Source of the DNA: a bacterium
GTDB lineage: Bacteria > Pseudomonadota > Alphaproteobacteria > Rhizobiales > JAKIUO01
Assembly: GCA_024228495.1 (NCBI GenBank)
Contig: JAAETJ010001012.1
Location: 1 to 64,000, forward strand
Length of the DNA stretch: 64,000 bases
Direction of reading: 5' to 3'
A program made the translations under genes and the position numbers. Below are positions 9,344 through 26,312 of this stretch, one piece after another. Below the pieces are notes generated by a model. It was not told the DNA's origin, searched no databases, and was given only the letters and a program-made list of their open reading frames with translations. Within the stretch, counting starts at the first letter, position 1. Each line of letters starts with the position of its first letter.

Positions 9344-9718
9344 CTAGACCATTGCCAGGCGGGGTTTTGGTTCGAGGATCCGTAGCACCATCTCCAGATC
9401 GCGGCCACGCTTCAATATTTGGCCTCCCGGAGCGATCACACTATAAACGCCTTGACGTCGCGCCAATTTAGGATTTTTTTCGACCCGATAAAGCGGCACT
9501 TCGCTGGCATGGCGAAAGATCGAGAACACCGCCCGTTCCTTCAGCATATCGATCGCGTAGTCGCGCCATTCACCCGCCCCTACCTGCAGCCCATAGAGCC
9601 CCAGGATCAAGTCAAGCTCGGTCCGATTAAAGGAAACCACCTGCTCCTCATGTGAGCACCTGGTGCCGCTCACATGGCCGGTGCTCAGCTTTATTATTAT
9701 TGGGTCACCTTCGCTCAC
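9344..9718 (-). CDS. DUF2794 family protein
   Basis: 124 residues, cytoplasmic. The sequence VSFNRTELDLILGLYG, GEWRDYAIDMLKERAVFSIF, PLYRVEKNPKLARRQGVYSV and GGQILKRGRDLEMVLRIL follows the DUF2794 pattern known from alphaproteobacteria, where it is a conserved single-domain protein without assigned function. Full length for the family. It stands alone on the minus strand, tail-to-tail with the ybhL-like gene. Confidence 0.88.
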   Translation of the reverse strand: MSEGDPIIIKLSTGHVSGTRCSHEEQVVSFNRTELDLILGLYGLQVGAGEWRDYAIDMLKERAVFSIFRHASEVPLYRVEKNPKLARRQGVYSVIAPGGQILKRGRDLEMVLRILEPKPRLAMV

Positions 9719-9875
9719 AACGCCTCCTGCTGAATTGCAATACTCTACCTGTAAGAGTGCGCCCCAATGATCCGCGGGTCAAGCGCACAAGCTCTAAGGG
9801 CCGCTTCTCAATTGGGTAAATATTAACAAGGCCGTAAAACCTACGCGAAATCATCACGAAACTGCCCTATTAAAG
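9719..9875. other. Intergenic, presumed promoter region
   Basis: Lies between the DUF2794 gene (minus) and the candidate structured RNA (plus). TATTAA at 9868-9873 is a possible -10 box for the RNA, but no good -35 box was found at the right distance. No open frame of interest. Confidence 0.35.
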
Positions 9876-10090
9876 TCTTTAGGGAGCCGCAATGTAATGA
9901 TCTCTTGATGATGTTGCAGATGTTCGGCTTCCGGGACTAAAGACGATTTTGGAAAATAGCCCCCAAGCCCCTTTCCAAGGCCTGACCTGGAAGTCGAACC
10001 GCAACAGATCTTTTAAAGAGCGCTCCACTCCCTTTTTGTGATCCCGATGTAGAGTTACTCAAGCTGGCGTCCCCAACGCCAGCTTTTGTG
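9876..10090 (+). ncRNA. Candidate structured small RNA
   Basis: Non-coding stretch that folds locally and ends in a terminator-like hairpin. TCTTTAG (9876-9882) pairs with CTAAAGA (9937-9943), and inside it AGCCG (9885-9889) pairs with CGGCT (9925-9929), with GCAA/TTGC further in. A C- and A-rich single-stranded part follows (9955-10050), then the hairpin at 10061-10085 followed by TTTTGTGTT. This arrangement suggests an independent transcript of about 210 bases or a long leader that terminates before htpG. It does not match the 4.5S, 6S, RNase P or tmRNA features I know. A ten-codon frame, 9908-9940, sits inside the first stem-loop. Confidence 0.4.
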
Positions 10091-10092
10091 TT
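10061..10092 (+). terminator. Intrinsic terminator hairpin upstream of htpG
   Basis: AAGCTGGCGT / ACGCCAGCTT form a perfect 10-bp stem with a five-base loop, followed by TTGTGTT (the last bases of the arm add to a TTTTGTGTT tract). No coding gene precedes it on the plus strand, so it probably ends the RNA candidate at 9876. Confidence 0.7.
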
Positions 10093-10375
10093 ATTAGGGC
10101 AACGGTCTGGTAAATCGCGCCCAATATTACAAACTGGTAAGTATTACCACAGTCTCGCCCTATTTTTTCCGCCGTTCCGCCCCATTCCATTGCCAAAAAA
10201 CAGATGTTGCCTGGCTCGGTTTATCCTACAGGTTTCGGATTTAAAGCCCCCCAGCCCCTCCGAACCATCAAGATGAACCGGGCCTTCAACGCTCCCCCCC
10301 TTTTTCATTGTGATTTGCTCTCAACTCACCTAAAACCTTGTGAAATATTTTATTGAACAAGGGAATTGAACGGCC
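10091..10375. other. Leader / promoter region of htpG
   Basis: Pyrimidine-rich with runs of C (10290-10310). An inverted pair, CCTTGT / ACAAGG, lies at about 10337-10363 immediately before the htpG start, around AT-rich DNA. It could be an operator or part of a sigma-32-type promoter. No open frame is credible. Confidence 0.35.
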
Positions 10376-12358
10376 ATGACATCATCAGACGAACAGAGCG
10401 AAACAAACAACGAAACAATCAATGAAACATCTTATGAGTTTCAAGCCGAAGTCGCGCGACTACTGGAGCTGATGGTGCATTCGGTCTATTCCGAACGCGA
10501 GGTGTTTTTGCGCGAGTTGATCAGCAATAGTGCCGATGCCCTCGATAAATTGCGCTATAAAGCGCTCACCGATGAAACCATGATGCCCGATGATCTTAAA
10601 CTGGCCATCACACTTGTTGCCGACAAGGAGACCAAGACGCTCACCATCATCGATAATGGCATCGGTATGAGCAAGTCTGAACTGGTGGAAAATCTTGGCA
10701 CCATCGCGCGCTCTGGTACCAAGGCCTTCATTGATCAAATCAAGCAAGGTGATGACAGCAATAAGGCAAGCCCTGACCTCATCGGTCAGTTTGGCGTTGG
10801 CTTCTATGCCGCTTTCATGGTGGCTGACCGCGTTGATGTTATTTCCAGGAGAGCTGGATCAGATGAAAGCTTTCAGTGGACCTCGGATGGGAAAGGGATG
10901 TTTGACATCACCGCCCTTGAACAAGAACAAGCTTTTGGCACCAGCATCACCCTACATTTGAAGGACGATGCTGTGGAATTTCTTGAAGAAAGCGAAATCC
11001 AGCGCATCGTGCATACCTATTCTGATCACATTTCCTTCCCTATCTTCCTCAAAGGCGAGGAAAAGGCACCGACGGATAATGATGAGAAGAGCGAGACGGA
11101 GGATGCACAGCAACAGCTCAACGCCGCCAATGCTCTTTGGACCCGCTCCAAAAACGACATTACCCCTGAGCAGTACAAAGAATTTTATCACCATACGGCC
11201 AGCGCCTTTGATGATCCGGCCTTGACCATTCACTACACCGCCGAGGGGCGCCAGCTTTATACCAGCTTGTTATTCGTGCCCTCCATGCCGCCTTTTGATC
11301 TTTATGACGCCCAGCGCAGCGCCCATATCAAACTGTTTGTAAAACGCATTTTCATTACCGATGATGCCGAAATCCTACCCCCTTATCTGCGCTTTGTGCG
11401 CGGCATCGTCGATAGCGAAGACATCCCCCTCAACTTGTCGCGCGAAATGCTGCAAAATAATCCGCTGCTCGCATCCATCCGCAAAGCAGTGACTAACAAA
11501 GTATTGTCTGAGCTGACCAAGCTGGCCGACAATGAAGCGGAAAAATATTTGCAGGTCTGGGAGCATTTTGGGGCCGTCATGAAAGAAGGCCTCTATGAGG
11601 ACGTCGAGCGCCGCGACACGCTTTACAAACTGACGCGCTTCAAATCGACCCTTAACGAACTCGACACCAGGGTTGAGAGCGACAAGTCCGATGACACTGG
11701 TTGGCGCTCCCTTGACGACTATATCAAAGACATGCCCGAAGGCCAGACCGCCATCTATTATCTGGCGGGCGACAATATGGATCAGTTGAAAGCCAGCCCG
11801 CAGCTTGAAGGATATATGGCCCGCGGCCTTGAGGTATTATTGCTTGCCGATCCGGTCGACAGCTTCTGGGTGTCAACCGCGGCCGGGTTTGAGGGCAAAC
11901 CCTTCACCTCGATTACACAAGGGTCTGCAGCTCTTGATGACTTGCCCGTACAAGAGGGTGACGAAACTGAAAAATCTGATGATAGTGATAGCGACGCTCT
12001 GCTAGATCGCATGAAAACGGCGCTCGTAGAAGATGTCGCCGATGTGCAAAAATCATCCCGCCTTGTCGCCAGCCCCGCCTGCCTGATCGCCTCGGCGCAA
12101 GCTCCCGACCGGCAGCTGGAAAAAATGCTGGCCCAGCAAAAAGGCGGTTCCATACCAAGCGTCAAACCAATCCTTGAGATCAATGCCTCGCACGCGATGG
12201 TCAAAGCGCTCAACAGCGCCATTATTGATAATAAGGAAAAGCGTTTTAGCGACCTTGCCTTTTTGCTGCTTGATGAGGCTCGTATTCTGGAAGGCAATGC
12301 ACCAAAAGATCCTGCGAAATTTACGGAGCGTTTGAACAGGCTGTTGCTGGAGGGGTAG
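10376..12358 (+). CDS. htpG: Chaperone protein HtpG (Hsp90)
   Basis: Bacterial Hsp90, an ATP-dependent chaperone working with DnaK/GrpE on unfolded clients in the cytoplasm. 660 residues, somewhat longer than the E. coli protein (624). The GHKL ATPase domain shows ELISNSADALDKLR (47-60), DNGIGM (93-98), LGTIARSGT (107-115) and GQFGVGFYAAFMVADRV. The middle domain carries LYTSLLFVPSMPPFDLYD and YLRFVRGIVDSEDIPLNLSREMLQ. The C-terminal dimerisation domain is complete, without the eukaryotic MEEVD tail. An acidic Asp/Ser-rich insertion (EGDETEKSDDSDSD) lies between middle and C-terminal domains. The upstream CTTGTGA element near 10338 may belong to a heat-shock promoter, but this is weak. Confidence 0.97.
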   Translation: MTSSDEQSETNNETINETSYEFQAEVARLLELMVHSVYSEREVFLRELISNSADALDKLRYKALTDETMMPDDLKLAITLVADKETKTLTIIDNGIGMSKSELVENLGTIARSGTKAFIDQIKQGDDSNKASPDLIGQFGVGFYAAFMVADRVDVISRRAGSDESFQWTSDGKGMFDITALEQEQAFGTSITLHLKDDAVEFLEESEIQRIVHTYSDHISFPIFLKGEEKAPTDNDEKSETEDAQQQLNAANALWTRSKNDITPEQYKEFYHHTASAFDDPALTIHYTAEGRQLYTSLLFVPSMPPFDLYDAQRSAHIKLFVKRIFITDDAEILPPYLRFVRGIVDSEDIPLNLSREMLQNNPLLASIRKAVTNKVLSELTKLADNEAEKYLQVWEHFGAVMKEGLYEDVERRDTLYKLTRFKSTLNELDTRVESDKSDDTGWRSLDDYIKDMPEGQTAIYYLAGDNMDQLKASPQLEGYMARGLEVLLLADPVDSFWVSTAAGFEGKPFTSITQGSAALDDLPVQEGDETEKSDDSDSDALLDRMKTALVEDVADVQKSSRLVASPACLIASAQAPDRQLEKMLAQQKGGSIPSVKPILEINASHAMVKALNSAIIDNKEKRFSDLAFLLLDEARILEGNAPKDPAKFTERLNRLLLEG

Positions 12359-25019: not shown

Positions 25020-25688
25020 ATGGACATACAACGCCTTGACGGCCCGCACATCAGCTCCTTATCCGGGACGACCAAACAATTAGTCATTATTCTCCATGGA
25101 TATGGGGCCGACGGGAACGATTTAATCCCACTTGGCCGACAATGGCAGCAAATGTTGCCCAATGCGGAGTTCGTGGCGCCCAATGCCCCACAATTTTGTC
25201 AAAACCCGCCCATGGGCTATCAGTGGTTTCCTTTGAACGTCACCATACAGGGGGTAGTCTCGACACCCCAGGAGCGCTGGGACGGGGCACTGGCTGCCAC
25301 GCCATCGCTTGATGCCTTTATCGATGCGGAACTGGCGCGTACAAAGCTTGACCCGTCAAATCTGGCTCTGGTTGGTTTCTCGCAAGGGGCCATGATGGCG
25401 CTACATGTTGGTTTGCGCCGCACCCCCTCACCGGCAGCTATTGTCAGCTATTCAGGTATGCTGCTGGGGCCGGATCATCTGGACACCATCACCGCTAAAT
25501 CGCCCGTTTTTCTGGCCCACGGATCTGTGGATGAAATCGTCCCTTTTGAGGCCATGTCGTTGAGCAAGCAGGCCCTCACAAGCATCGATATAGACGTCAC
25601 GTCCTATGTCGAAGAGGGCATGGGGCATGGCATTGATGGCGAAGCGACCTGGCTAGCAGGCGAGTTTCTGGTCAAAAGTTTTATCTGA
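25020..25688 (+). CDS. Phospholipase/carboxylesterase family alpha/beta hydrolase
   Basis: 222 residues, cytoplasmic, of the YpfH / acyl-protein-thioesterase-like group. Landmarks: LVIILHGYGADGNDL for the oxyanion region, PNAEFVAPNAP, the nucleophile GFSQGAMMALHVGL, Asp in HGSVDEIVPF and His in EGMGHGIDGEA. Catalytic Ser, Asp and His are thus all visible. Short-chain ester or thioester substrates are usual; the natural substrate is unknown. Probably cotranscribed with the glycosylase gene. Its end overlaps the convergent gene at 25681 by 8 bases. Confidence 0.9.
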   Translation: MDIQRLDGPHISSLSGTTKQLVIILHGYGADGNDLIPLGRQWQQMLPNAEFVAPNAPQFCQNPPMGYQWFPLNVTIQGVVSTPQERWDGALAATPSLDAFIDAELARTKLDPSNLALVGFSQGAMMALHVGLRRTPSPAAIVSYSGMLLGPDHLDTITAKSPVFLAHGSVDEIVPFEAMSLSKQALTSIDIDVTSYVEEGMGHGIDGEATWLAGEFLVKSFI

Positions 25689-26193
25689 TCACGCGATTGC
25701 CGCAATAGTTTTCGTGAGCTTGGCGGGCTGCCAGAACCAGCGGTTTATAAGCCAGTCCCAAACGGCTCACGCCCCGGCAAACACTATTGTCGAGGCTGGC
25801 CATGAAGCAGCTATGGCTCGTTTTGTCGATTACATCGTCTAAATGATAATCGGTCATCTGGTAGATGCCTTTGAGCCTATTTTTTTTCATGGTTTTCGAT
25901 AAATTTCCCGTAAATTCCAGATAGATGGCAGGTTCTTCCTGTCGTAGAGCTTTGGCGTATTTTTTGTGCGCCGATCCCATTCGTTGTTCGATTTCGGTGC
26001 AATCAGGAGAAGACGAGCTGCTCGATCGACCAAAACCAAATGAAGGAAATGAGTACGTCGACAGGCTGGTACAGCCAGAAAGGCCAATGGCAAGAACCAT
26101 CAAGGGTGCGAACAAGGAACGCCGATCACGCGCCAAGCACAAAAATGTTTTTTGGCATCTAATTAAATAATAATAAAACAAAAACAAATACAT
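25681..26193 (-). CDS. Putative lipoprotein of unknown function
   Basis: Up to 170 residues, with an uncertain start. The lipobox region MVLAIGLSGCTSL predicts acylation at Cys and a periplasmic or outer-membrane location. A Ser-rich linker (GRSSSSSSPDC) follows. The mature part contains IEQRMGSAHKKYAKALRQEE, MTDYHLDDVID and four Cys in the second half (HSCFMASLDNSVCRGVSR, ENYCGNR) that could form disulfides. The frame begins at an ATG at 26193 with GGGGG nearby but carries a Tyr/Phe-rich N-terminus; a shorter start near residue 20-27 is possible. No family recognised. Confidence 0.6.
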   Translation of the reverse strand: MYLFLFYYYLIRCQKTFLCLARDRRSLFAPLMVLAIGLSGCTSLSTYSFPSFGFGRSSSSSSPDCTEIEQRMGSAHKKYAKALRQEEPAIYLEFTGNLSKTMKKNRLKGIYQMTDYHLDDVIDKTSHSCFMASLDNSVCRGVSRLGLAYKPLVLAARQAHENYCGNRVIR

Positions 26194-26312
26194 GAAAGCC
26201 CCCCAGCCCTTACATTATCTGTACCCTGCTTTATAGGACCAATGCAAGTCTATGTACCCGGCGGCACCACGGTGATCGCCAACTATACTTTGCTGATCTG
26301 ACGAGATGTGCT

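Follow-up and report, generated by a model that had tools for sequence, protein, structure and literature searches.

The locus analysed here raises the question of what occupies the interval between two divergently oriented genes of a Rhizobiales genome, the DUF2794 gene (9344..9718, - strand, 124 aa; Pfam PF10984, E=2.5e-37) and htpG, encoding Hsp90 (10376..12358, + strand; Pfam PF00183, E=2.4e-110). In the preliminary description of the window, that is the whole stretch of 64,000 nucleotides, this gap was read as devoid of genes, and indeed no conserved gene is present between DUF2794 and htpG. Its positions 9876-10090 were proposed to contain a nested stem, a C-rich linker and a terminator hairpin, fitting either a small RNA or a terminating leader and matching no RNA class known to its author. 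A tRNA/tmRNA search detected none, the Rfam scan of the window at gathering thresholds, with 6S, tmRNA, riboswitch and ROSE families included, gave no family match, and a permissive scan with E values up to 10 gave no match overlapping 9876-10090. The results presented below indicate that the gap carries two tandem elements of one RNA family and that the region first flagged is a real structured RNA, correctly sensed and wrongly drawn.

Element 1 (9848-10093, + strand) comprises an upstream box, a long hairpin and an intrinsic terminator. The flagged region exceeded all of its 200 shuffled versions in folding (z=-3.6), and the hairpin at 9912..10006 has a minimum free energy of -36.9 kcal/mol (z=-4.0). 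In its stem (9912-9917/10001-10006 followed by 9922-9935/9986-9999) the segment UGUUGC-AGAU-GUUCGGCUUCCGGG (9912-9935) pairs with CCUGGAAGUCGAAC-C-GCAACA (9986-10006), and a short inner stem, UUGGAAA/UUUCCAA (9949-9955, 9972-9978), exposes in its apical loop the sequence AGCCCCCAAGCCCC (9958..9971), invariant in the genus. This loop is the C-rich stretch previously taken for a linker. The terminator hairpin, on the other hand, had been recognized properly: it spans 10061..10093, with a stem at 10061-10085 and a T-rich tail, and folds with a z of -5.95. In an alignment of five species of the genus the hairpin and terminator are 98.9% paired, and three pairs changed on both sides, a number equalled in 10 of 500 shuffles; two of the three compensatory changes lie in the terminator stem. 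A protein-coding origin of element 1 was discarded: closely related species differ by one base in the length of the hairpin, which speaks against a reading frame. The covarying hairpin, the conserved box placed at a fixed distance from it and the covarying terminator support the proposal of a small RNA with its own terminator.

The nested stem itself fares differently. The strings TCTTTAG (9876-9882), AGCCG (9885-9889), CGGCT (9925-9929) and CTAAAGA (9937-9943) are present, the stem can form in the sequence of the window, and its inner helix is almost invariant across the five species. Folded alone it gives a modest -21.8 kcal/mol (z=-2.1). However, the compensatory changes brought out by the comparison of relatives fall in the 9912-10006 hairpin and the terminator, and none in the helices of the nested stem, the outer one of which (TCTTTAG/CTAAAGA) is broken in several sequences and was rejected as the structure. 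Moreover, the 5' arms of the nested stem fall inside the upstream box, and its 3' arm is required by the conserved stem, as CGGCUUCC, the segment that it uses, is the 5' arm of the 9912-10006 hairpin. That the nested stem and the terminator would constitute the functional structure of a new RNA class is therefore scarcely credible.

About 290 bp downstream of the flagged copy there is an orthologous copy of BjrC174, overlooked in the preliminary description. Element 2 (about 10141-10298, + strand) is formed by a box and a hairpin (10205..10298; folding z=-4.45) that displays the loop AGCCCCCCAGCCCC at 10245-10258 and folds like element 1. In the permissive Rfam scan the BjrC174 family, RF02355, matched positions 10126-10305 with 27.1 bits (E=0.012), under the 45-bit gathering cut-off of Rfam. 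Model R1, derived from alignment A1 (36 sequences, all from outside the genus of the window), matches 10211-10294 with 44.5 bits (E=1.6e-8 in the window), and this is its single match in the genome (E=1.2e-6). Element 2 combines a long, covarying hairpin and the invariant C-rich loop with the divergent DUF2794 gene and the conserved upstream box, and, as judged from its sequence, it is the ortholog of the sRNA BjrC174. No intrinsic terminator was detected between element 2 and htpG (10298-10375), and hence in this genus the transcript may end by processing or read on into htpG. The proposal that no known RNA class is involved consequently applies at the automatic threshold of Rfam, and does not hold when element 1 is considered as the tandem duplicate of a member of the described BjrC174/RF02355 family.

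The distribution of the family is much wider than its name suggests. Of 199 genomes of the order, 69 contain an RF02355 match, never more than one each; 14 of these matches are above the Rfam cut-off and 55 below it, which implies that the cut-off marks a Bradyrhizobium-like core. Among the best 30 loci, DUF2794 was found in 23 and htpG in 17 (within 1.5 kb), and at least one of them in 27, as counted by hand. In alignment A1, 14 of 18 pairs show compensatory changes, with 77 double-change cells compared with a mean of 19 in shuffles, and the stem has been rewritten around a loop, CAGCCCCC(C)AGCCCC, that is essentially unchanged. In 27 genomes of the order lacking an RF02355 match, model R1 additionally recovered 11 clear members and several weaker ones next to DUF2794. 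Outside the order, it detected the family in 11 genomes sampled from the class, again mostly beside DUF2794; this gene thus adjoins family members both within and beyond the order. The exact 22-nt loop pattern occurs, among the matches listed, in Rhodopseudomonas, Microvirga, Kaistia, Chelatococcus, Bosea, Phreatobacter, Rhodoplanes, Pseudolabrys, Hyphomicrobium and Methyloceanibacter. A terminator is present 3' of the hairpin in 40 of the 69 members, where 0.4 would be expected by shuffling. Neither the loop sequence nor RF02355 gave any hit in literature searches. In Rfam this RNA is limited to Bradyrhizobium and related bacteria, yet it is widespread in Alphaproteobacteria. Diverged relatives were also seen beside DUF2794: locus L298 keeps, at 2010-2068, the box and a GCCCCCCAGCCCC loop on a new stem, L283 has AACCCCAGCCCC, and L294 keeps the box, such a hairpin not being seen there.

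Members of the family share, upstream of the hairpin, the motif TCACAnTTtCGCCnnaTTCnGCC(cttg)....GCC, which is conserved across many genera (L042-L077) and whose spacing to the GTTGCC at the start of the hairpin is almost constant. A matrix of 65 columns, built from 33 genomes of other genera and leaving out GTTGCC, was run over the 127,872 positions of the window. Its two best positions are the boxes of element 2 (10141..10205, 21.6 bits) and element 1 (9848..9912, 16.8 bits), both at exactly the predicted offset, and the third-ranked position scores only 5.0. A shortened pattern of the box occurs once per genome in the 12 genomes tested, and the listed places that were compared correspond to the DUF2794/sRNA locus. 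The box could be either a promoter/activator region or the 5' part of the RNA. If transcription started near GTTGCC, the conserved A at -11, T at -8/-7 and CTTGC near -35 would resemble a sigma-70 promoter with an activator site upstream; on the other side, the box may be transcribed, because the BjrC174 model of Rfam begins further upstream. BjrC174 has been described as an abundant sRNA with a validated promoter, whose activity was the highest of the tested start sites lacking a recognised promoter motif (PMC4842269), and the box may explain why its strong promoter fitted no known motif. Just 5' of the box of element 2, at 10120-10150, there is an inverted repeat TTAC-N6-GTAA, and GTAAC-like repeats are in the same place in several relatives (e.g. 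genomes G034 and G190); the repeat is a possible regulator site. In Brucella, a DUF2794 gene, BAB1_0087, is listed among the genes silenced by MucR (PMC10746212); MucR might act on the shared DUF2794/sRNA region.

The kinship between the two elements is supported by several features. They share the 65-nt upstream box, the GUUGC start and a long stem topped by AGCCCCC[A/C]AGCCCC, and element 1 has the GTTGC, the long stem and the AGCCCCC-AGCCCC loop at the expected distance from its box. By chance, 0.02 matches to the 14-mer AGCCCCCCAGCCCC with no more than a single mismatch would be expected in 64 kb; the window contains three, and two of these are the loops of the elements. Since the box matrix ranks both elements in the first two places at the predicted offset, element 1 appears as a tandem duplicate that includes the control region, and it is very probably a duplicated sRNA gene of the BjrC174-like family. 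The duplicate has diverged considerably. Its stem sequence is unlike that of element 2, R1 misses it under default filters and, with filters off, finds it in the correct register with 9.1 bits, and in the sampled genomes of the order it is found only in the genus of the window: R2, a covariance model built from element 1 only, detects the five genomes of the genus and has no match in the remaining 194. These data could be taken to mean that element 1 is an unrelated, genus-specific sRNA, located beside a true BjrC174 homolog, whose C-rich loop arose by convergence. However, convergence would have to account for a box outscored, among 127,872 positions, only by that of element 2 and lying exactly at the predicted offset, for the GTTGC and loop common to both elements, and for the recognition of element 2 by R2 in three relatives (E=1.4e-4 to 1.4e-3; in the window, E=0.036), and it is accordingly given very little credence.

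The gap thus is likely to contain two tandem sRNA genes, element 2 being the BjrC174 ortholog and element 1 a divergent duplicate retained in the genus. Each would probably be transcribed into a discrete sRNA of roughly 100-180 nt, with a long stem whose loop presents a nearly unchanging C-rich sequence, and the loop would pair in trans with G-rich stretches of mRNAs, altering their translation or stability. Having two copies, whose loops differ slightly (AGCCCCCCAGCCCC and AGCCCCCAAGCCCC), could increase dosage or divide the targets between them. Considered by itself, trans-acting antisense regulation through the loop is only somewhat favoured, by analogy with the precedents of BjrC174, GsrN and PmaR. 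A more tentative and rather doubtful extension would see in the elements sibling riboregulators with diverging target sets, each expressed from a dedicated upstream box seen only at the DUF2794/sRNA locus.

The main rival of antisense action proposes that the family RNAs bind a protein, which would be sequestered or guided by the long stem presenting repeated AGCCCCCC octamers. The loop indeed contains the octamer twice and does not change between distant genera, in contrast to the freely varying stem. Furthermore, a search with the long exact loop complement GGGGCTGGGGG gave only two further sites in the genome of the window and no leader common across the genus, and the pattern GGGGCTGGN{3,10}ATG returned so many sites, most of them probably within coding sequence, that they could not be interpreted; neither search found a conserved mRNA target of the loops. 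Nevertheless, no protein ligand of the AGCCCCCC motif is known, and the C-rich loops of alphaproteobacterial sRNAs that have been functionally studied are linked to mRNA pairing (PMC5869019, PMC6234868), making protein binding unlikely. A cis-acting function is still less probable. One or both elements would then be part of the htpG transcript and control htpG, in line with the leader reading of the preliminary description; this would agree with the position of element 2, which shares the strand of htpG and lies about 80 nt 5' of it, the interval showing no detected terminator, and with the proximity of htpG in 17 of the best 30 loci. However, element 1 ends in a covarying terminator and is separated from htpG by element 2, many members have their own terminator, and some, such as BjrC174 itself, lack htpG in the flank examined.

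With respect to targets of the trans-acting loop, the sequence AAGGGCTGGGGGGCTTTCATG (26211-26191, - strand) ends in the ATG of a lipoprotein-like ORF of 170 aa (25681-26193, - strand) and holds a 15-nt perfect complement, GGGCTGGGGGGCTTT, to the loop AAAGCCCCCCAGCCC of element 2. About 0.02 near-matches to the 14-mer would occur by chance in the window, equivalent by scaling to one or two in a whole genome; where the ORF really starts is uncertain, and in the single relative compared synteny stops short of it. For these reasons the site at 26191-26211 is only a candidate mRNA target of element 2, proposed from base complementarity.

A narrowly named Rfam entry, BjrC174 ('Bradyrhizobiaceae'), turns in this way into a family that spans the order and beyond, whose genomic position is fixed, whose loop hardly varies and whose control region is conserved. 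Finding orthologs and performing genetics become possible in many hosts, including the cultured Rhodopseudomonas, Microvirga, Kaistia and Bosea, and the tandem copy constitutes a natural experiment on the divergence of sRNA siblings.

Loops have been implicated in the action of other sRNAs of this class of bacteria. EcpR1/SmelC291 of Sinorhizobium is likewise a conserved trans-acting sRNA of Hyphomicrobiales that acts via a conserved loop (PMC4414408), but it differs in its loop, UCCGCCGCAUCU, in its divK-pleD/rpmG locus and in having two stem-loop domains; membership in the EcpR1 family is ruled out by the different locus and loop. PmaR (C10) of Agrobacterium is 'spoon-like', with a C-rich loop that is the predicted target-binding site (PMC6234868). 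Compared by described shape alone, it resembles the elements in its long stem and its single-stranded loop with several C-rich regions, while its reported range is limited to Agrobacterium and a single Rhizobium strain. In the case of Caulobacter GsrN, compensatory mutations showed that the C-rich loop binds the katG leader (PMC5869019), and the likeness, drawn by description, lies in the exposed tandem-cytosine loop that pairs with G-rich mRNA sites. Most GsrN homologs lie close to the ecfG/nepR/phyR stress locus and are preceded by a sigma-EcfG promoter, with C. crescentus gsrN itself lying away from that locus (PMC5869019), whereas here the neighbours are DUF2794 and htpG; this different neighbourhood, again compared by description, speaks to some extent against membership in the GsrN family. 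The closest relative is BjrC174 (RF02355, 'Bradyrhizobiaceae sRNA'). Element 2 has the same hairpin, C-rich loop and DUF2794 neighbourhood, and element 1 the same upstream box and architecture and a loop with one change, differing from BjrC174 in that it is an additional copy whose stem is different, which has a terminator of its own and which was found only in the genus of the window. Both elements are under the 45-bit cut-off for BjrC174, in a family that reaches far beyond Bradyrhizobiaceae.
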